From Verrucomicrobiaceae bacterium (lineage in GTDB: Bacteria; Verrucomicrobiota; Verrucomicrobiia; Opitutales; Intestinicryptomonadaceae): a DNA stretch of 56,182 nucleotides. Below, piece by piece: positions 20,513 through 30,766 of the stretch. The DNA lies in the NCBI GenBank assembly GCA_015061955.1, contig SUVO01000016.1, positions 1-56,182 on the forward strand, written 5' to 3'. Each line of letters begins with the position of its first letter. The stretch's first letter is position 1. Below the pieces are notes generated by a model. It had not been told where the DNA came from. It worked only from the letters and a program-made list of their open reading frames with translations, and made no database searches. The translations under genes were made by a program, and so were the position numbers.

Positions 20513-20980
20513 TTATCTACTTAATTTAAAAGCTTTACGCGTTATACCAGCACCAATATATGCCGAAATTAAGTTTGCCATTAGTTCTTTCCATACATCT
20601 GCTAAATAAAAACCATTTACATAAGCAACATTAAAGCGTTCTTTTTCGGGGATAAGTCCCCAAAGCCAACCACCATACTGTTCTGCTGTTTCAATAGCAA
20701 CTGGTATATCTACAAAAAATGCAAATAAAAACGGACAGACAGCCAGTACAAAAAATGCCATAAATAACATAATTCGTCTAACCCACTCGCCACTATCGCC
20801 CGATCTATTGAAGGCAGAATCATAAGCAGTAATGTCGCTTAATTGTTGTTTTTGTAGAGCGTCAAGTACCATAGTAAATTTTTGCGAATTTATTGCAGAT
20901 AATTGTCCGACACATGTAACAACACTACTAAATATAGCACCTAACGCACCACTATCCCAAAGCTCTAATAGTAATTCCAA
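20513..20980 (-). CDS. phage holin-like membrane protein
   Basis: Protein of 155 residues, counted from a TTG at 20980. That start has AGGAAGGA about ten bases upstream and follows the previous stop by one base; there is no ATG early in the frame. A hydrophobic helix (RIMLFMAFFVLAVCPFLFAF) is followed by a second semi-hydrophobic stretch near the C terminus (ANLISAYIGAGITR), and the segment before the first helix is amphipathic. The pattern resembles three-TM holins of tailed phages and gene transfer agents. It follows a tail-fibre-like gene, which supports phage origin. No endolysin is adjacent. Confidence 0.5.
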   Translation of the reverse strand: MELLLELWDSGALGAIFSSVVTCVGQLSAINSQKFTMVLDALQKQQLSDITAYDSAFNRSGDSGEWVRRIMLFMAFFVLAVCPFLFAFFVDIPVAIETAEQYGGWLWGLIPEKERFNVAYVNGFYLADVWKELMANLISAYIGAGITRKAFKLSR

Positions 20981-20981
20981 T

Positions 20982-21245
20982 TTATAATGTTCCTTCCTGT
21001 TGTTTTTGTTCAGCAATAGCTTTTATTTGTTCTGCCAATGCAAGTAATTCTTCAGAAGTAAAGTCTTTGCCAAAAGCAAAGCTTGTTAAATTGCCTACTA
21101 TTTCTGAAGGCAAGTGTTGAATAATAGAACTGTCGAGAGTTTTATTTAGATGTCCCGATAATTCTTTTTCACCAACAAATAACTTTGCTACAAGTTTAAT
21201 TTGTTCTACTTCTATTTCTGTAATTGAATTTATTCTGATTTTCAT
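20982..21245 (-). CDS. small protein between tail-fibre-like and holin-like genes
   Basis: Protein of 87 residues starting MKIRINSITEIEVEQIK. No signal peptide or membrane segment; mostly helical by composition, with a Gln/Lys-rich C terminus. I do not recognise it. It begins 3 bases after the tail-fibre-like gene and its stop is one base from the TTG start of the holin-like gene, so the three are one unit. A tail-fibre assembly chaperone is a possible role from position only. Confidence 0.5.
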   Translation of the reverse strand: MKIRINSITEIEVEQIKLVAKLFVGEKELSGHLNKTLDSSIIQHLPSEIVGNLTSFAFGKDFTSEELLALAEQIKAIAEQKQQEGTL

Positions 21246-21248
21246 AAA

Positions 21249-23024
21249 TTAGTTCTGTTCCGATGTTGATGTTGTTATTTCTTCTACAAATGCTTCTATT
21301 CTGGTATCGTTGTCTCCCATTACATTACCTGTAATTGTTGCGTGGTTTTTATTTCCAGAGTAGTCTAAAACTTTTCCGTTTATCGTGTAATCTTCGAGAG
21401 ATAAGAGAGTTCCGTTTTTGCAAATGTTAAAATTTTCTAAAATAGTTTGAACTCTATTTTCTGCAGAAGTGGCAGTATTACAATTAAATGTAAATCTTAT
21501 TTGAGTAATATTATCACTTGCAGTATATCTTTCATTCAACGTAGTTTCTGTTAATGGAATTGTTTTTACAGCTGTTAATGTATTATTTAAAAATTCAAAT
21601 TTACCATATGCTCCATTTACAATAACACCACCAATTAAATCACTAAAGCTTAAGTTAACAACTACACCTTTATTGATAATAAAATTATATCTTATTGACT
21701 TAGATGTTTGAGGATTTGAATTTTGTGTTAAAATGTAATTGTTTCCATTCCATGAATGAGATGTATCGGATGCGACTACGTTGGGATTTTTACCACCACC
21801 AAATAAAACAGCATTTAACAAACTTGGTGAAATAGGTTTGCCTTGCTGATAATCTTCAAGTGTATAAAGAGCATCTGCCGATGTTATATCGAAGTTGAAT
21901 TGATATATATCAGCGTATTGCAGTAAAGCTCCCTTTGAGTGTACTTGGAAATTTTGCGTTGGTGTAATATTTTCCAAAACTACACTTCCACTTGATATTA
22001 AATCGCCATCAAAATATATTTTTGCTTCATTGTTAAAACCTACAAGTACAACTGAATGCCACTTATCGTCTGTATAATTAGCCATTATTGACGAGCTAAT
22101 TGTAAATATTGTTTTATTTCCATTGCTACCACAATACTGAAACATCAATCCAGAATTAGAAGGTCTTAAACCAAAACCGATTGTTGATGCACCAAATTTA
22201 TTTGCAATAATGTATTCATTTTTAGTTACAAATATGTTCCAATTTTCAGCGTTTACTTTAAATCTAAAGCACCAACAAAATTCTTTTACATTTTGTTTTG
22301 AGCCTAATGCTAACGAGCCACCATCAAAATGCAATGCACCTTTGTTAGCTTTGAAAAGTTGCAAATCATTAATATTTAAATTTTGTAATTCTAAATTTGA
22401 AGCAACTTCAAATTTGTCGGCTTTCTGCTCTTGAAGATTATTTGAACTTTGTGTCAAATCGTAAAGCTCTGCAGCGATAGAATTTAACTTATCATTCTGT
22501 GCGTGGATTTGCCCTTGCAATTCAGACGCAATAGAAATTGATTGTTGAGGATTGTCGCTCAAATCGGCTTCAAAATTTTCTGCTACATAAATCCACCCAG
22601 AAGCAAATGTTACTTTGTCGCCATTTTTCAAATAAGCCGAAATTTTCAAGTATTTATCACCTGCAGTAAAGTATGCCTGACTTGATGTTATAGGCACACT
22701 GAAATGACACTTACCCAAATCAATTTCAGCCTGAGTTATATTTTTATTTATAAATTCGGCTAAGATTTCTTTTTTAAAGAGTGTTTTACAATTGCGAGGT
22801 AATGCTCTGTTTACTTCGCCAATATCCATAATTTCAAACGATGCCGAAACAATGTTCGTGCAATCGGCAATAGTTGAGTTATTCAGCAGAATAACATCGA
22901 AGCGTACACTATCGCCAGCCCTAATACAAATAGTTTCATTACTTAAACTATTTTTAGGATTATCAAAAACCGATAAATCAGCAAATAAGCGAACGCAATT
23001 TATATAATTGAATTCATCTTCCAT
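21249..23024 (-). CDS. phage tail-fibre-like protein with LamG-type domain
   Basis: Protein of 591 residues without a signal peptide. An N-terminal beta-rich domain (about 1-150) is followed by a coiled-coil shaft (about 162-228, heptad-rich with ELQGQIHAQNDKLNSIAAEL). A concanavalin/LamG-like lectin domain begins at about 229 with GALHFDGGSLALG and NVKEFCWCFRFKV. Further beta-rich segments follow and include VLDYSGNKNHATITGNVMG, a phrase typical of laminin-G-like repeats. The architecture of base-plate domain, trimeric stalk and lectin tip is that of receptor-binding tail fibres. GGAC precedes the start by five bases. No capsid, terminase or tail-tube genes occur near it. Confidence 0.6.
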   Translation of the reverse strand: MEDEFNYINCVRLFADLSVFDNPKNSLSNETICIRAGDSVRFDVILLNNSTIADCTNIVSASFEIMDIGEVNRALPRNCKTLFKKEILAEFINKNITQAEIDLGKCHFSVPITSSQAYFTAGDKYLKISAYLKNGDKVTFASGWIYVAENFEADLSDNPQQSISIASELQGQIHAQNDKLNSIAAELYDLTQSSNNLQEQKADKFEVASNLELQNLNINDLQLFKANKGALHFDGGSLALGSKQNVKEFCWCFRFKVNAENWNIFVTKNEYIIANKFGASTIGFGLRPSNSGLMFQYCGSNGNKTIFTISSSIMANYTDDKWHSVVLVGFNNEAKIYFDGDLISSGSVVLENITPTQNFQVHSKGALLQYADIYQFNFDITSADALYTLEDYQQGKPISPSLLNAVLFGGGKNPNVVASDTSHSWNGNNYILTQNSNPQTSKSIRYNFIINKGVVVNLSFSDLIGGVIVNGAYGKFEFLNNTLTAVKTIPLTETTLNERYTASDNITQIRFTFNCNTATSAENRVQTILENFNICKNGTLLSLEDYTINGKVLDYSGNKNHATITGNVMGDNDTRIEAFVEEITTSTSEQN

Positions 23025-25810: not shown

Positions 25811-25853
25811 CTACACCGACGTTTTTTCTGAATTCTGTTGGTGTAGTTTTTTT
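25811..25853 (+). terminator. terminator of the HAD gene, overlapping a convergent gene
   Basis: CTACACC (25811-25817) pairs with GGTGTAG (25840-25846), followed by seven T on the plus strand. The stem lies inside the last codons of the 66-residue minus-strand gene. Confidence 0.6.
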
Positions 25854-26011
25854 ATGTCGCAATCAATTTTATGTTTAATTCTATCTGCTAACAAAGAATT
25901 TATTTCTTTTTCAGTAGCTTGATAAGCATTTTTTATTTCTTTCAAAAATTCTACATCTTCTTTTGCCAATTTAAATTCATCAGGGCATTTATTGTTATCT
26001 TGATTATTCAT
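25811..26011 (-). CDS. small protein coupled to the ECF sigma gene
   Basis: Charged protein of 66 residues, predicted helical (KLAKEDVEFLKEIKNAYQAT then a basic/acidic second helix), with no signal peptide or membrane segment. Its ATG overlaps the sigma factor gene end by 8 bases and has a strong AAGGAG eight bases upstream. The tight coupling suggests it works on or with the sigma factor, for example as a soluble regulator, but it resembles no anti-sigma domain I know. Confidence 0.6.
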   Translation of the reverse strand: MNNQDNNKCPDEFKLAKEDVEFLKEIKNAYQATEKEINSLLADRIKHKIDCDIKKLHQQNSEKTSV

Positions 26012-26642
26012 TGTTCAACTCCTTTTGATAATATTCCGACGAGTAGTTTTTGCGAATATCGCACAAGACTTTATGAATATTTTTATATACTTTTTTTGCA
26101 TCAGTATTCAGTTCATCGCAAATAGTAGAAATTTTCATATTCCTGAGATGTCGCATCTCGAAACACAACCATGTTTTTGCATCAAAATTTGTACGCGTAG
26201 TCCCAAGAATATCCATAATCAAGGCTTGTTTATATTCTCGTTCTTCGTCTTCATCTAAGCGATTATCGTATGTTGAAATATCGCACAAATCAATATCGCA
26301 ATCAGAATACTGAATCTGACGTTTTCGCGAACTATGTCTAAGATAATCTACAACTCTACGTTTTATTATAGTTTTCAAAAAGCCTCTAAATTTATACTTT
26401 TTGGGCTGATACACTCCACTTTCAAAAGCATTGCGTATAGACATAACAGTTGCAGATATGACATCTGTAATTTCATCATCTGTAGGTGCTCTCTTTATTT
26501 CCGTGATAAACGCGTTTATGGTCATCTGCTTAAGAGTTATACTGTACATTTCGTAAAATTTCGTCCACGAAATATTCCATACCTGATTATTTTGTGAATT
26601 TAGTTTTGAAATAATTGAATGTGGTGTGTCTGGACATCTCAT
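26004..26642 (-). CDS. ECF-type RNA polymerase sigma factor
   Basis: Protein of 212 residues with the two-domain ECF layout. Region 2 is recognisable by VMSIRNAFESG and FRGFLKTIIKRRVVDYLR; region 4 covers roughly 145-205 with a helix-turn-helix (MKISTICDELNTDAKKVYKNI). A linker rich in Asp/Glu joins them. No membrane anti-sigma gene is adjacent. Instead the divergent neighbour is a Ser/Thr kinase, as in ECF groups controlled by kinases, such as EcfP/PknT of Vibrio parahaemolyticus, where phosphorylation of the sigma factor activates it. Kinase control here is inference from arrangement. Confidence 0.83.
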   Translation of the reverse strand: MRCPDTPHSIISKLNSQNNQVWNISWTKFYEMYSITLKQMTINAFITEIKRAPTDDEITDVISATVMSIRNAFESGVYQPKKYKFRGFLKTIIKRRVVDYLRHSSRKRQIQYSDCDIDLCDISTYDNRLDEDEEREYKQALIMDILGTTRTNFDAKTWLCFEMRHLRNMKISTICDELNTDAKKVYKNIHKVLCDIRKNYSSEYYQKELNNE

Positions 26643-26723: not shown

Positions 26724-28424
26724 ATGAAATTATCTGTAATAAATAGCAAATATATTTTGATTAAGGTAATTGGCGAAGGTGGTTTTGGCAAAGTTTGGTT
26801 GGCAAACGATGATAACAACAATTTTTTTGCTGTAAAACAAATAAAAAACATTACACCTCAAAGCCATGAATATAAGGGCGTAATGCACTATAAGAAAATT
26901 TCAGATGAATTAAATTCGAATTATCTGATAAAAATTTTAGACATTGCAATTGAAAACGATACACTCTACTACGCAATGCCTTTGTGCGATTCAATAAAAA
27001 CATCGAAAGAATATTTTGAGGAATTTGAAGAGAACGATGTATCGGAAATATCGCCTTTAGACGACAAATGGGAGCCTCGTACATTACAAACCGACATAGA
27101 ATTACAACGCTCAAAAAATGAATGGTTTGATAGGCATGAAATATGTGCTTATATCAAACCGATAATAAAGGCAGTCGATACCCTCAGCCAAAAAGGATTT
27201 CTTCATCGCGATATAAAACCTGCCAACATAATGTTCTTCAATGGCGTTCCGTGTTTGGGGGATGTTGGACTTCTTACAGCCGATACCGTTTCAGTAAGTT
27301 CTGCAGGAACACCATATTATTTGGCACCCAAATGGTTTATAGATTCGCATGGCAACCCAGATATATGGGGCTTAGCAATGACTTTGTTTACGCTCTTGTC
27401 TGGTTCAACGCCCGAGTTATACGGACGTCAGGCATATCGTTTCCCTCCACAAGGGAAAGAAAAAATGACCACCAAAAACATCATTGCTTGGGACAATTAT
27501 TATCAAATAATCTTAAATGCTACCTCGAAAAATTTGCGTGAGCGTTATGCAAGAATTTCTGATTTTGCAGTAGATGTAGAGCTAATAGCTACCGATAATT
27601 TCAATAAACCAACTCCCGATATAAACGCACAACATTTTGATACAGCATTGCGCAAACATCGCTTGCGAAAAAATATCATAATGGGGATTGTTGCCTTGAG
27701 TATGTTAGTTTGCACATTCTTTATCGGACGATACACTTCGCCTCCAACAAAAGTTGTAGAATATTTACCTGCTCCGAAATCTACCTATGATAAAGTCTTA
27801 GAATTTATAGACCACAGAACAAACATCCTCAAAAATTGGAAGACAAATAAAAATATAATACAAGACTTCGATAAACTTATCGATGAAGGAATTAACGTCA
27901 GAAGTGATAGTCCTCGAGAAGAATTTCACGTTTGGAGTAATATTTTTGCCGTCTATAAAGATAGCGACCACAAAATTGAGTACTACAAGCTCTTGCCATT
28001 TTTAGTAGAACATTACTCGAAGCAAGGTAATAATCAACGAGTAGAAAATATTGTAAAAGCTTTAAAAGAGTATCCTTTGCCACCAAATTATAGCAGAGCA
28101 ACAATAAAGGAGCTTTTAGAATTCAGTAAATTTATGCATAAGTATAATATCACAATTCCAAAAACAGATGTTGATAGTGCACTTAACAATAAACTTAAAG
28201 AACAAACAACAGATGAACTCGTAAAAATCTACCATCTGGCAAAAAAATATAACTTAGAAATGTCAATGATAAGCATTAGAAATATTCTCTATAGAAGATA
28301 TATGCACGAACATCGTAAATCTGATCCCAAAAGTGGAAGAATGGCATCAAGAAAAGAATTGTTTTTATTGCCAAAATTAGCTGATAAATATGTAAAAGAA
28401 CTCTTAAAAGAAAAAGAAAAATAA
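26724..28424 (+). CDS. membrane Ser/Thr protein kinase (PknB-like)
   Basis: Protein of 566 residues. The kinase domain (about 1-290) shows the Gly loop GEGGFGKVWLA (17-27), catalytic Lys38 (FFAVKQIK), HRDIKPAN with Asp163, and DIWGLAMTLFTLLSG. Two usual motifs are altered: DFG is DVG (180-182) and APE is APK (201-203). One membrane helix (about 317-336) separates it from an exported helical domain of about 230 residues with TPR-like heptads, presumably the sensor. It is transcribed divergently from the ECF sigma gene and has its own terminator. The active-site Lys, HRD Asp and metal Asp180 are kept, so catalysis is likely. Confidence 0.88.
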   Translation: MKLSVINSKYILIKVIGEGGFGKVWLANDDNNNFFAVKQIKNITPQSHEYKGVMHYKKISDELNSNYLIKILDIAIENDTLYYAMPLCDSIKTSKEYFEEFEENDVSEISPLDDKWEPRTLQTDIELQRSKNEWFDRHEICAYIKPIIKAVDTLSQKGFLHRDIKPANIMFFNGVPCLGDVGLLTADTVSVSSAGTPYYLAPKWFIDSHGNPDIWGLAMTLFTLLSGSTPELYGRQAYRFPPQGKEKMTTKNIIAWDNYYQIILNATSKNLRERYARISDFAVDVELIATDNFNKPTPDINAQHFDTALRKHRLRKNIIMGIVALSMLVCTFFIGRYTSPPTKVVEYLPAPKSTYDKVLEFIDHRTNILKNWKTNKNIIQDFDKLIDEGINVRSDSPREEFHVWSNIFAVYKDSDHKIEYYKLLPFLVEHYSKQGNNQRVENIVKALKEYPLPPNYSRATIKELLEFSKFMHKYNITIPKTDVDSALNNKLKEQTTDELVKIYHLAKKYNLEMSMISIRNILYRRYMHEHRKSDPKSGRMASRKELFLLPKLADKYVKELLKEKEK

Positions 28425-28460
28425 AAAGCATCTACACTTAATATAAACAAATAAATTCTA

Positions 28461-28491
28461 AAACTGCAGTATATTGAACATACTGCAGTTT
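28461..28491 (+). terminator. terminator of the kinase gene
   Basis: AAACTGCAGTA (28461-28471) pairs perfectly with TACTGCAGTTT (28481-28491) and is followed by T-rich sequence. It separates the kinase from the precursor-ligase unit, which must have its own promoter. Confidence 0.9.
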
Positions 28492-28589
28492 TTTTATTTT
28501 TTTGAGAAAAAAATAAAAAAAACAACGAATTAAGAAGTGAACATAATCTATATACAAACCAAAAAATATAGATATATGGAAAAATTATA

Positions 28590-28605
28590 GTCTATTTCAA
28601 TAGAC
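28590..28605. repeat. inverted repeat upstream of the putative precursor gene
   Basis: GTCTATT (28590-28596) and AATAGAC (28599-28605) with a 2-base gap lie 30 bases ahead of the precursor start, in the promoter/leader region 28492-28634. It could be an operator or a leader hairpin. I could not place confident -35 and -10 boxes here. Confidence 0.35.
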
Positions 28606-28634: not shown

Positions 28635-28844
28635 ATGATCATATCAACAATAGTAGCATCAGCAGCACTTATGTCGCCTGTTGATGTAGCAGAAAATATC
28701 AGTCAACCAACTGAACCAATTGTATCTAATGCACCTGTGTCTAAGTTGGAAGAAGAAACCAAAATGGGAGCTAGTGTAAACTATACTTACTCATTCGTAG
28801 GTAATGGAAGTCAGAGCATGGATGATGCAAGATCATGGGATTGA
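28635..28844 (+). CDS. putative graspetide (ATP-grasp RiPP) precursor peptide
   Basis: Peptide of 69 residues with a good ribosome site (AAAGGA, about nine bases before ATG), directly upstream of an MvdC/MvdD-like ATP-grasp ligase. The leader-like part (1-45) is hydrophobic at its start then rich in Glu/Pro. The C-terminal 25 residues are enriched in side chains such ligases join: hydroxyl donors Thr51, Ser53, Ser59, Ser61, Ser67 and acids Asp63, Asp64, Asp69. It ends in the core-like GNGSQSMDDARSWD. The microviridin leader motif PFFARFL is absent, and there is no GG cleavage site. The role as substrate is inferred from position and composition. It could instead be a small exported protein. 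Confidence 0.6.
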   Translation: MIISTIVASAALMSPVDVAENISQPTEPIVSNAPVSKLEEETKMGASVNYTYSFVGNGSQSMDDARSWD

Positions 28845-28856
28845 TATAAATTAAAT

Positions 28857-28884
28857 ATGAGTGGGAGTATTTTCTCCCACTCAT
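28857..28884 (+). promoter_or_regulatory. strong hairpin between precursor and ligase genes
   Basis: ATGAGTGGGAG (28857-28867) pairs perfectly with CTCCCACTCAT (28874-28884) around a 6-base loop: an 11-bp stem 12 bases after the precursor stop and 24 bases before the ligase start. No T run follows, so it is not a classical terminator. It probably stabilises the precursor mRNA 3' end or reduces ligase expression relative to the precursor, a common arrangement in RiPP loci. Confidence 0.7.
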
Positions 28885-28908
28885 TCAACTCTAAAAACAA
28901 GACAAAAT

Positions 28909-29811
28909 ATGCTACTTATTATTACATGCACCGAAGATGTTACAACTGAAATGCTTGTTCCATTTTTAGATGGAATTGAAGTTTTTCGTTTTAATATCGA
29001 CAAATGGAACGAATACGCTTGGGATTTTTCAGATAATGGCTTTGAAGTATTGTCTCCCGATGGAAAACGCCTTACACAAGAAAACTTAAAACTTGTCTAT
29101 TTACGCAAACCTATTTTTTTCAACACAATAGACGTACCCAAAACAGGTTGCCTTGAAAACTGGTGCAGAAAAGAAGTTGAACGCCTTTGGCAAGATTTAT
29201 ATTACGATATGGCTTCAAAAGGGAAAGCTGTTTTAGTGAAGCCCGCAAAAGCAAAGTGGTACAAACACACACAAATGACTCTTGCTCAAAAATATTTTCC
29301 TGTACCTGAATGGCATATAATTCGTGGACACACACCAGATTATTTAAAAAGTGGAAATTGGGTTATAAAAAGTCTTACACAAGAAATGATAGGTGAAGGT
29401 AAACTTTTTACAGTAAAAAGTGTAGATACATCAAAATTAGACCCATACTATCCTTGGTTCTATCAACGCAAGCTCGACGCACAATTCGACATTACAACTC
29501 TTTATGTAAACGGTAAAACTTTTTCTTTTCAACTCGATAGAAGCCTATTAACCAAGGAAGACTGTCGACAAGAAACACCTTTCTTGAAATGGGAAAAATG
29601 CAACTTAACCGCTCAAGAAGAAAATGCCATAGCCTCTTTTATGAAAGATACAGGCTTTGAGTTCGGAAGATTCGATTTTATGAGGAAAGATGGTGTTTTA
29701 TATTTCTTAGAATTAAATCCAAATGGAATGTGGGCTTGGTTAGATTTAGAATTTAAAAATGGTATTTTTGAATGTATTGCACATGAAATCAAAAAGGCAT
29801 ATCACAAATAG
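28909..29811 (+). CDS. MvdC/MvdD-like ATP-grasp peptide ligase (graspetide synthetase)
   Basis: Protein of 300 residues belonging to the ATP-grasp ligases that form side-chain ester or amide links in graspetides. Diagnostic segments are LVYLRKP (62-68, the YxRxP element of this clade), the grasp-fold lysine WVIKSL (151-156), FGRFDFM with Asp256, and LELNPNGMWAWL with Glu268 and Asn270 for Mg-ATP binding. NPNGxW is the hallmark of MvdC/MvdD and separates them from RimK or Ddl. The ATG at 28909 is used; a GTG upstream lies within the intergenic hairpin. No second ligase, acetyltransferase, peptidase or ABC exporter is seen within this locus. Confidence 0.87.
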   Translation: MLLIITCTEDVTTEMLVPFLDGIEVFRFNIDKWNEYAWDFSDNGFEVLSPDGKRLTQENLKLVYLRKPIFFNTIDVPKTGCLENWCRKEVERLWQDLYYDMASKGKAVLVKPAKAKWYKHTQMTLAQKYFPVPEWHIIRGHTPDYLKSGNWVIKSLTQEMIGEGKLFTVKSVDTSKLDPYYPWFYQRKLDAQFDITTLYVNGKTFSFQLDRSLLTKEDCRQETPFLKWEKCNLTAQEENAIASFMKDTGFEFGRFDFMRKDGVLYFLELNPNGMWAWLDLEFKNGIFECIAHEIKKAYHK

Positions 29812-29953
29812 TAAATATATATTGAGTGGATTGACTATTATTGTAGTTGCAATACTATTTATTAGTATAATGTTTTTATTCAAAAGTATCTGTAATGCAA
29901 ACGCATTACAACCCAACTTTGAACAATTAAAAACAGAATATCAAAATCAATAA
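29783..29953 (+). CDS. small single-pass membrane protein
   Basis: Protein of 56 residues: a basic N terminus, one long hydrophobic helix (about 15-35, LSGLTIIVVAILFISIMFLF) and a polar tail. Its ATG lies inside the last codons of the ligase gene (29-base overlap), which suggests coupling. A start 24 bases earlier is possible. No ribosome site or family is evident, so it could be a chance frame, but the hydrophobic pattern and operon position argue for a gene. Confidence 0.45.
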   Translation: MKSKRHITNSKYILSGLTIIVVAILFISIMFLFKSICNANALQPNFEQLKTEYQNQ

Positions 29954-29979: not shown

Positions 29980-30255
29980 ATGAAAAGAAAACTATTTAAA
30001 TATTTTTTGGCAATAGTTATATTGATAATTATCCCCTCTTGGCAATTGATAAAATATTATAACTACATAGAGTTCCTCGAACATAAACCTTCCGTCTCCA
30101 GCGATCACATCTATACTATCGAATGCTATGGGATTCCTATGCTAGCTCATCTTTTAATGATTGTATGCGCTTATTTTTCTATAAAGCTTATAAATGTAGA
30201 AGCTAAAATTGAACAAGCATTAAAAGCTATAAACAACGCAAAACAGAAAGAATAA
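29980..30255 (+). CDS. small membrane protein, two predicted helices
   Basis: Protein of 91 residues with hydrophobic helices at about 8-23 (YFLAIVILIIIPSWQ) and 52-70 (IPMLAHLLMIVCAYFSIKL), then a short basic/acidic helical tail. The stop is one base before the next gene's start. No recognised family. Its place in the putative graspetide unit might hint at immunity or export assistance, but nothing in the sequence proves that. Confidence 0.6.
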   Translation: MKRKLFKYFLAIVILIIIPSWQLIKYYNYIEFLEHKPSVSSDHIYTIECYGIPMLAHLLMIVCAYFSIKLINVEAKIEQALKAINNAKQKE

Positions 30256-30256
30256 A

Positions 30257-30766
30257 ATGAAAAAGATTATATTAACATTACTTATCGCATCATTTTACAC
30301 TATTGCATCATTTGGGGCAGGACTTACACTTAAACAAATGGCAAAACAGGGAAACCCTTCTGCACAACTGCTTATTAAGATTTTTAAAGAAGATAATGAA
30401 TATGGATTCCTTCTCCCAGAAACCAAGATTGCACGCAATAAAGCTCCCCAATGGGCTCACCAACAAGCCGAACAAGGCGATCCTTGCGCGCAAGTTATTC
30501 TTGCGTTGTGTTATGCTGATGGGTATGGAGTAAAACAATGCAGTATGAAAGCTTTCGCTTGGGCTTCTTTGGCTAACTGGAAAGGACTTAACATAGCAAA
30601 AATAATGTTGGAAACCCTAAAAAAAGAATACCTAACAGATGTTCAGCTAAAAATAGCCTTAAAAATGGCACAGAACTATCGCAGAGGAAATTTTGGTTAC
30701 GATCCGGAAGAAGACCTCTATAATGCTACTTTTAATAGTAAACCAGTAGATAATGCCTTTGAGTAG
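30257..30766 (+). CDS. secreted Sel1-repeat protein
   Basis: Protein of 169 residues with a signal peptide (about 1-20, LTLLIASFYTIASFGA). It contains Sel1-like repeats: QMAKQGNPSAQLLIKI at the start and AEQGDPCAQVILALCYADGY followed by GVKQCSMKAFAWASLA at about 72-107. Sel1 repeats form alpha-solenoids for protein contacts. It is the last gene before a strong terminator and shares tight spacing with the two membrane proteins. Confidence 0.75.
   Translation: MKKIILTLLIASFYTIASFGAGLTLKQMAKQGNPSAQLLIKIFKEDNEYGFLLPETKIARNKAPQWAHQQAEQGDPCAQVILALCYADGYGVKQCSMKAFAWASLANWKGLNIAKIMLETLKKEYLTDVQLKIALKMAQNYRRGNFGYDPEEDLYNATFNSKPVDNAFE

Follow-up and report, generated by a model that had tools for sequence, protein, structure and literature searches.

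Among the described graspetides, microviridins have a core pattern of their own and are made by systems with two ligases, and plesiocin has repeated TTxxxxEE cores, each with an adjacent Thr pair and a Glu pair. The microviridin leader carries the motif PFFARFL, as given in the main text of a 2022 survey (PMC8939145). The main text of a 2026 RODEO survey describes the hairpin topology of hairpin-like graspetides and the annotation of MirB, of group 21, as TIGR04187 (PMC13097080).

The locus described here lies in a window (the whole stretch of DNA analysed, 56,182 nucleotides) that makes up a single contig in a genome of 2.4 Mb, G000. Judging from sequence, we think that it makes a graspetide (probability about 0.88), because a precursor and a ligase recur as a pair, the ligase is homologous to graspetide synthetases over its full length, and leader and core motifs recur among the precursors. 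An earlier note on this DNA had proposed such a locus, and the ligase homology, the recurring pair and the conserved leader and core support it. The peptide gene of 69 residues, with its ribosome site, directly precedes the ligase, and the downstream ORF carries LVYLRKP and LELNPNGMWAWL, both at the positions that the note gave; the window genome has a single copy of the ligase, as the note's “one ligase only” implied, and the leader as read in our alignment indeed lacks PFFARFL. Two of the three findings that the note had named as evidence against it were looked for, and neither appeared: a candidate upstream ORF was present in 30 of 30 readable loci, and no peptide conserved apart from a ligase was seen among 116 relatives searched. 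The central features of the locus are as follows.

28590..28605 (+): inverted repeat GTCTATTTCAATAGAC, just 5' of the ribosome site (sequence reading)
28635..28844 (+): putative graspetide precursor, 69 aa (ORF reading, genus alignment, motif counts)
Precursor residues ~1-44: leader, with hydrophobic MIISTIVASAALM and then SPVDVAENI
Precursor residues ~45-69: predicted core, GASVNYTYSFVGNGSQSMDDARSWD, with Thr51, Ser53, Asp63 and Asp64 conserved
28857..28884 (+): hairpin between precursor and ligase, likely a partial terminator or attenuator (shuffle and consensus scans)
28909..29811 (+): putative graspetide synthetase (ATP-grasp ligase), 300 aa (profile matches; start by alignment)

The ribosome site AAAGGA, from 28621, stands ahead of the precursor ORF, whose leader/core border was placed by eye. 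By alignment, the ligase starts at the ATG at 28909 and not at the listed GTG at 28861, because relatives begin at the former and the GTG is not conserved; 64 nt then separate the precursor stop from the ligase. The ligase occurs in three of the 14 genomes of the genus, each time with the peptide immediately 5' of it. BLASTP of individual pairs gave 45% identity between the window precursor and the peptide of G001 (E 3e-18) and 36% with that of G009 (E 1e-9). Because a related peptide immediately precedes an orthologous ligase in both congeners, the pairing is, as judged from these comparisons, not a matter of chance. A precursor profile search of the 116 relatives returned three strong matches, all adjoining the ligase, and the next best match had an E-value of 0.036; weak matches (E 0.036-0.94) were taken as chance. 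The profile-search E-values of 1e-36 and 2e-33 belong to rows of the query profile itself and add no proof.

The earlier note had placed the core around Ser59, Ser61 and Ser67 with Asp63, Asp64 and Asp69, and this stood in part. Asp63 and Asp64 are conserved, and so are Thr51 and Ser53, which we take as the true conserved donors; the check for conserved C-terminal S/T and D/E positions beside the ligase came out positive, 26 of the 29 distinct peptides having the core motif. Ser59 and Ser61, which align with Asn and Val in G001, are not conserved and were ruled out as donors. Ser67 and Asp69 are missing from several relatives, and Ser67 is possible solely as an extra donor in part of the family.

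The top four NCBIfam matches of the window ligase are all graspetide-maturase models, the best being TIGR04187 (E 3.5e-21), and the fifth is at chance level (E 0.1). Its scores lie far below the curated cut-offs (TIGR04187, 75.7 against 350 bits; TIGR04185 MvdC, 62.3 against 425; TIGR04184 MvdD, 34 against 475; TIGR04192, 28.1 against 230), four ligases of relatives likewise fall far below the NCBIfam cut-offs, and Pfam gave no match to the window ligase. Against PDB chains, the single ligase sequence matched AMdnB, 5ig8, CdnC, 9bou and 5ig9 (E 5e-10 to 0.004). A profile of 15 relatives (A3) aligned full-length with AMdnB (7m4s; E 2.8e-28, positions 2-297), and at E ≤ 0.001 it found five distinct PDB sequences, AMdnB 7m4s and then 5ig8, CdnC 7mgv, 5ig9 and 9bou; 5ig8 and 5ig9, which the PDB lists as ATP grasp ligase, are presumably microviridin ligases. 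Among the invariant columns of the ligase alignment are K154, R220, R254, D256, E268 and N270, which we take to have a role in the ATP-grasp site. An AlphaFold model from a two-row alignment (A4, the window and L005 ligases) had a mean pLDDT of 37.

A mobile origin of the locus was considered and rejected. Eight plasmid records do hold relatives of the ligase, all below 60% identity, and the best reaches 25% when the full query is counted; among the plasmid relatives, those annotated tgmB in Streptomyces and Kitasatospora show 25-30% identity. Among three viral-contig loci, the phage-like contig IMGVR_UViG_3300034010_000835 (L104:382-1895) has a 33% ligase relative, and the ORF upstream of it ends YDYDW...SGSTATETITGNLLDTDSDDDRSYD, resembling a family precursor. 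In the window itself, on reading alone, 20513-23024 (-) holds genes resembling a phage-tail/LamG-type protein and companions.

Profile searches, pooled with the genus, found the ligase in 31 Verrucomicrobiota genomes; the sets searched overlap. A phylum-wide draw gave 16 of 387 genomes, including the distant G050, G220 and G268, whose graspetide-like ligases were set aside from the family counts; the ligase was further found in 20 of 114 genomes of family f58, 4 of 145 of f29, and 3 of 137 from the order to which G195 belongs. Independently of the query, a three-row ligase profile (A2) recovered relatives in f58, f96 and f29 with E-values from 5e-79 to 1e-105. In a tree of 23 of the 31 ligases and two of the three outgroup graspetide-like ligases of the phylum, the 23 family ligases formed one clade (support 100/99), with long outgroup branches. 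G519, in which the ligase is cut at the contig start and the upstream DNA is absent, was dropped from the counts, and a candidate small precursor ORF preceded the ligase in every one of the 30 loci with readable upstream DNA. Beyond the genus (27 loci) these ORFs were chosen by eye, some of them from a list pre-filtered for acidic pairs.

After exclusion of the G513 peptide, which is identical to that of G385, there were 29 distinct precursors. The core pattern [TS]-x-[STC]-x(3-13)-D-D occurred in 26 of them against 2.0 expected, and the leader pattern P-x-[DE]-[IVTM]-[AS] in 24 against 0.45 expected; both expectations come from shuffling the same residues and leave the choice by eye uncorrected. 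The core motif is missed by G509 (which ends early), G427 (DTD) and G729 (END), and the leader motif by G359, G177, G293, G427 and G729. Precursors of G427 and G729, which have neither, were placed by position and a YDW element; the upstream ORF in 28 of the 30 loci has the leader motif, the core motif or both (G509 the leader alone). Of the 26 core-motif precursors, 16 have Ser/Thr at the second donor position and 8 have Cys, and in 2 the position could not be assigned. Counted from the first donor, the first Asp lies at a distance of 7 in six peptides and of 11-14 in eighteen. The leader and core motifs recur, whereas the residues that separate donors from acceptors are variable. In a RiPP-like pattern of evolution, G136 and G225 are 98% identical in the ligase, 90% in the leader and 50% in the core, with S-F-[SC] and DDWHLA retained. 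A faster core was absent from two other close pairs, G433/G556 (core 93%, ligase 95%) and G532/G516 (core 84%, ligase 80%); G433 and G359 are 85% identical in the ligase, 56% in the leader and 40% in the core. Precursors of the genus and of f29 have an extra hydrophobic N-terminus that those of f58 and f96 do not (MIISTIVASAALM versus MTPNDIA).

Next to these peptides the intergenic DNA has recurring elements. Every one of the 25 loci tested has a hairpin between precursor and ligase (z −1.9 to −7.2 relative to mononucleotide shuffles; G513, G509, G556, G427 and G729 of the 30 loci were left out), and its sequence differs between lineages. Another inverted repeat lies at a like place to GTCTATTTCAATAGAC, 5' of the ribosome site, in many f58 loci. 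Upstream of the precursor, TGTCAG-N15..17-CGTA occurs in 20 of 20 f58/f96 loci, followed downstream by the palindrome TTGGTTAACCAA in 17 of the 20; a GCGGAC/GTCCGC-type inverted repeat is the best simple hairpin in 12 of the 20, with compensating changes in some. A strict form of the promoter, TGTCAGATT-N13..15-CGTAT, had 62 matches in 18 of 20 f58/f96 genomes, 50 of them on the ligase-bearing contig (contigs of 4 to 174 kb); the reversed-pattern control had none in the 20 genomes, and the strict motif was absent from G359 and G520. The f58 form of the motif, TTGTCAGAT-N14..16-CGTAT, had no match in G000 (the window genome), G001 or G009, and a sigma-70-like promoter scan of the window found 26 sites against 24.7 in shuffles, no excess. 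In 14 of 19 f58 loci a looser motif is also present where the ABC transporter gene begins. Conservation of the f58 motif may be partly coding, because its −35 part shares bases with the 3' end of the transporter gene there; in f96 there is no such overlap. This distribution fits a cluster-centred sigma regulon and does not prove reading by the adjacent sigma factor.

Behind the same promoter motif, f58 genomes also have a candidate structured RNA of ~100 nt (GTGCCATTAGGCAG, CCGGCTGAGAGAGCCCGG, and CCTGCGG paired with CCGCAG), seen in L083, L084, L085, L086, L093, L094, L100, L103 and L047. Rfam had no match in any of the ten loci compared with it, which include six of these nine, and none in the window.

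Downstream of the window ligase are three small genes.

29783..29953 (+): hydrophobic 56-aa protein with a single TM-like segment, its ORF overlapping the 3' end of the ligase gene (reading)
29980..30255 (+): membrane-like ORF, 91 aa, no family match (ORF list, Pfam)
30257..30766 (+): 169-aa protein with a signal-peptide-like start, similar to a Sel1-repeat protein of G009 (E 3e-14)

A small ORF similar to the first follows the ligase in G009 (reading); the post-ligase protein of G009 has a Sel1 repeat (Pfam), and G001 also has a Sel1 protein. All 19 f58 loci have an ABC transporter gene ahead of the precursor, and the three f41/f46 loci have one behind the ligase. Similarity searches found no ABC transporter near the genus, f29 or f96 loci read, and the ORF list and similarity search showed no exporter or leader peptidase gene near the window locus; our guess is that the hydrophobic N-terminus of the genus and f29 precursors may stand in for a transporter. 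Cleavage at a GG site was rejected, as Pfam found no C39 peptidase domain in the two transporters checked, L047 (f58) and L054 (f41). Beside the L054 transporter is a stand-alone M41 peptidase gene (L054:7736-8422, +), possibly a leader peptidase. Near the G009 locus lies a trypsin-fold protease with PDZ domains (L006:12536-14020, -; Pfam), and in G545 and G524 the promoter motif is immediately followed by genes for proteins that resemble it on visual inspection (L087 from ~893, +; L101). Possible roles are target, processing or self-protection.

A divergent sigma-kinase pair precedes the precursor in the window.

25811..26011 (-): 66-aa ORF overlapping the end of the sigma gene (ORF-list reading)
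26004..26642 (-): ECF-type sigma factor, divergent from the kinase (TIGR02937, 44.1 bits against a cut-off of 42.9)
26724..28424 (+): Ser/Thr (Hanks-type) kinase, 566 aa, with an N-terminal kinase domain (Pfam, similarity, hydropathy)
28460..28492 (+): terminator-like hairpin 3' of the kinase gene (consensus scan)

The last of these would separate the kinase and precursor transcripts. In the window kinase a hydrophobic, TM-like segment at ~317-335 is followed by a C-terminal part predicted to lie outside the cytoplasm, and 18 of 20 kinases examined have such a segment after the kinase domain (hydropathy). G001 likewise has a small ORF after the sigma gene (ORF-list reading). We searched for neighbouring kinases and sigma factors by similarity to three queries each. 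Of the 30 loci, 22 have a kinase gene no more than 5 kb from the ligase, and 21 of these have a sigma gene as well; the exception, G528, is on a 4-kb contig. None of the four f29 loci had either gene in the DNA read, of which one flank spans only 0.9 kb in G177; one flank is also shorter than 5 kb in several other loci. Outside f29, 22 of 26 loci have the kinase against 1.2 expected from kinases per genome (Pfam PF00069), the loci with no near kinase being G385, G513, G545 and G523. The nominal P of 4e-27 for this proximity ignores kinship; four lineages and several orientations are involved.

These observations can be assembled into a working model. The ligase would read the leader via its P-x-[DE]-[IV]-A element and use ATP to phosphorylate the Asp side chains of the D-D pair, and rings would close between the activated D-D and the [TS]-x-[STC] hydroxyls. 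The product would be a hairpin-like bicycle whose loop varies in length. Its rings are probably nested, with Thr51-Asp64 as the outer and Ser53-Asp63 as the inner ring, as analogy with hairpin-like graspetides suggests (PMC13097080). The hairpin 3' of the precursor would let the peptide be made in high and the ligase in low amounts. The transmembrane kinase encoded nearby may sense a cue outside the cell and activate the neighbouring ECF sigma factor, which would then switch on the operon; a precedent for the kinase-to-sigma step, in the available text of its report, is the transmembrane Hanks kinase PknS, which phosphorylates and activates the ECF sigma factor EcfK (PMC13147305). Control of the graspetide operon by the pair seems to us slightly the better bet. 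In the weakest step of the model, the mature peptide would leave the cell and act, most likely, as a protease inhibitor or as a competition or signalling peptide; protease inhibition is a default guess from the class. More speculatively, and with a slim chance of being right, Cys could be a native ring donor, the ligase making omega-thioesters as well as esters, and the exported peptide could be the ligand of the kinase in a kinase-ECF sigma-graspetide autoinduction loop. The main text of the 2026 survey calls thioester linkages non-native in graspetides (PMC13097080); native Cys rings, if true, would make natural thioester graspetides, a new chemistry.

How far other explanations account for the data differs with the part of the model. 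Since ATP-grasp enzymes are diverse, one plasmid relative (H2) is annotated rimK, and Pfam did not match the ligase, the protein might instead belong to the RimK-like or some other branch of ATP-grasp enzymes, with the small ORF either encoding a small protein that has nothing to do with it or serving as a leader-peptide attenuator. We regard this as very improbable: the top PDB and NCBIfam matches are graspetide-type ligases, the core pattern and leader conservation lie far above shuffles, and a candidate precursor is found at 30 of 30 loci. The kinase-sigma pair, for its part, could be a neighbour by habit in pair-rich genomes and have no control of the peptide. Of the 30 genomes counted, 28 have between 5 and 35 kinases each (G001 has 2 and G009 has 1), and G532 has two kinase-sigma pairs near the locus; pair orientation varies, and 0 of 4 f29 loci have the pair. 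Against this stand the 22 of 26 loci versus 1.2 expected (relatedness ignored), spread over four lineages (g1, f96, f58, f41/f46) with differing orientations, and the promoter motif centred on the cluster in f58/f96, and we consider mere habit rather unlikely.

A graspetide locus being our preferred reading, there is also the question of whether its product is already catalogued, as one of groups 25-43 of the 2026 survey or of the 174 families of 2022. The scale of those surveys favours this: by their main texts, the first predicts 21,584 graspetides and adds 19 new groups, of which some come from phyla that have been little studied (PMC13097080), and the second reports 115 new families and has TPR-repeat proteins among graspetide neighbours (PMC8939145). 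The same main texts also speak against it. “Verrucomicrobi-” and “sigma” are unmentioned in both; “kinase” appears twice in that of 2022 (in Table 1, as histidine-kinase-like ATPase) and not in that of 2026 (PMC8939145, PMC13097080), which names phosphotransferases only in groups 29 and 37, of Actinomycetota (PMC13097080). In the open literature, with the two surveys covered by main text, we found no description of graspetides in Verrucomicrobiota or with a kinase-sigma pair, and a search for graspetide with Akkermansia found none. On balance, prior cataloguing is possible but the lesser prospect. The earlier note's suggestion of a new graspetide group is accordingly unproven, the comparison with groups 25-43 and the 174 families having been made by main text only.

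Taken at the level of sequence, the family is sizeable in Verrucomicrobiota, its clusters usually have their own sensor kinase and sigma factor, and its product is very probably a ring-locked peptide. The phylum would thereby gain a graspetide family whose 29 distinct candidate precursors can now be synthesised and tested. Its predicted nested-ring core is simple, its loop varies, and the kinase-sigma pair is a clear candidate for its regulator. If the pair does control the cluster, a signal that switches on a RiPP via Ser/Thr phosphorylation would be directly testable.

Of the known systems, the microviridin type (AMdnB, CdnC) resembles the family in full-length ligase homology, a small precursor beside the ligase and acidic acceptors near the C-terminus; the window family differs in having neither the PFFARFL leader (PMC8939145, main text) nor the microviridin core, in its one ligase and in its kinase-sigma neighbour. 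TIGR04187 (GRASP_SAV_5884) ligases are the best NCBIfam match of the window ligase, yet at 75.7 bits against a cut-off of 350. In Xanthomonas citri, PknS-EcfK is likewise a transmembrane Hanks kinase with a cognate ECF-type sigma factor; in the available text that pair controls a type VI secretion system, whereas the window pair adjoins a RiPP cluster and its phosphorylation step is putative (PMC13147305). Plesiocin and the hairpin-like graspetides share with the family two close hydroxyl donors followed by two adjacent acidic residues, and the shortest family members read T-Y-T-x4-D-D. Rather than the plesiocin-type pattern, the precursors show [TS]x[STC] and D-D in a single core, with donors one residue apart, Asp in place of Glu, a loop of 4 to 11 residues and another leader.
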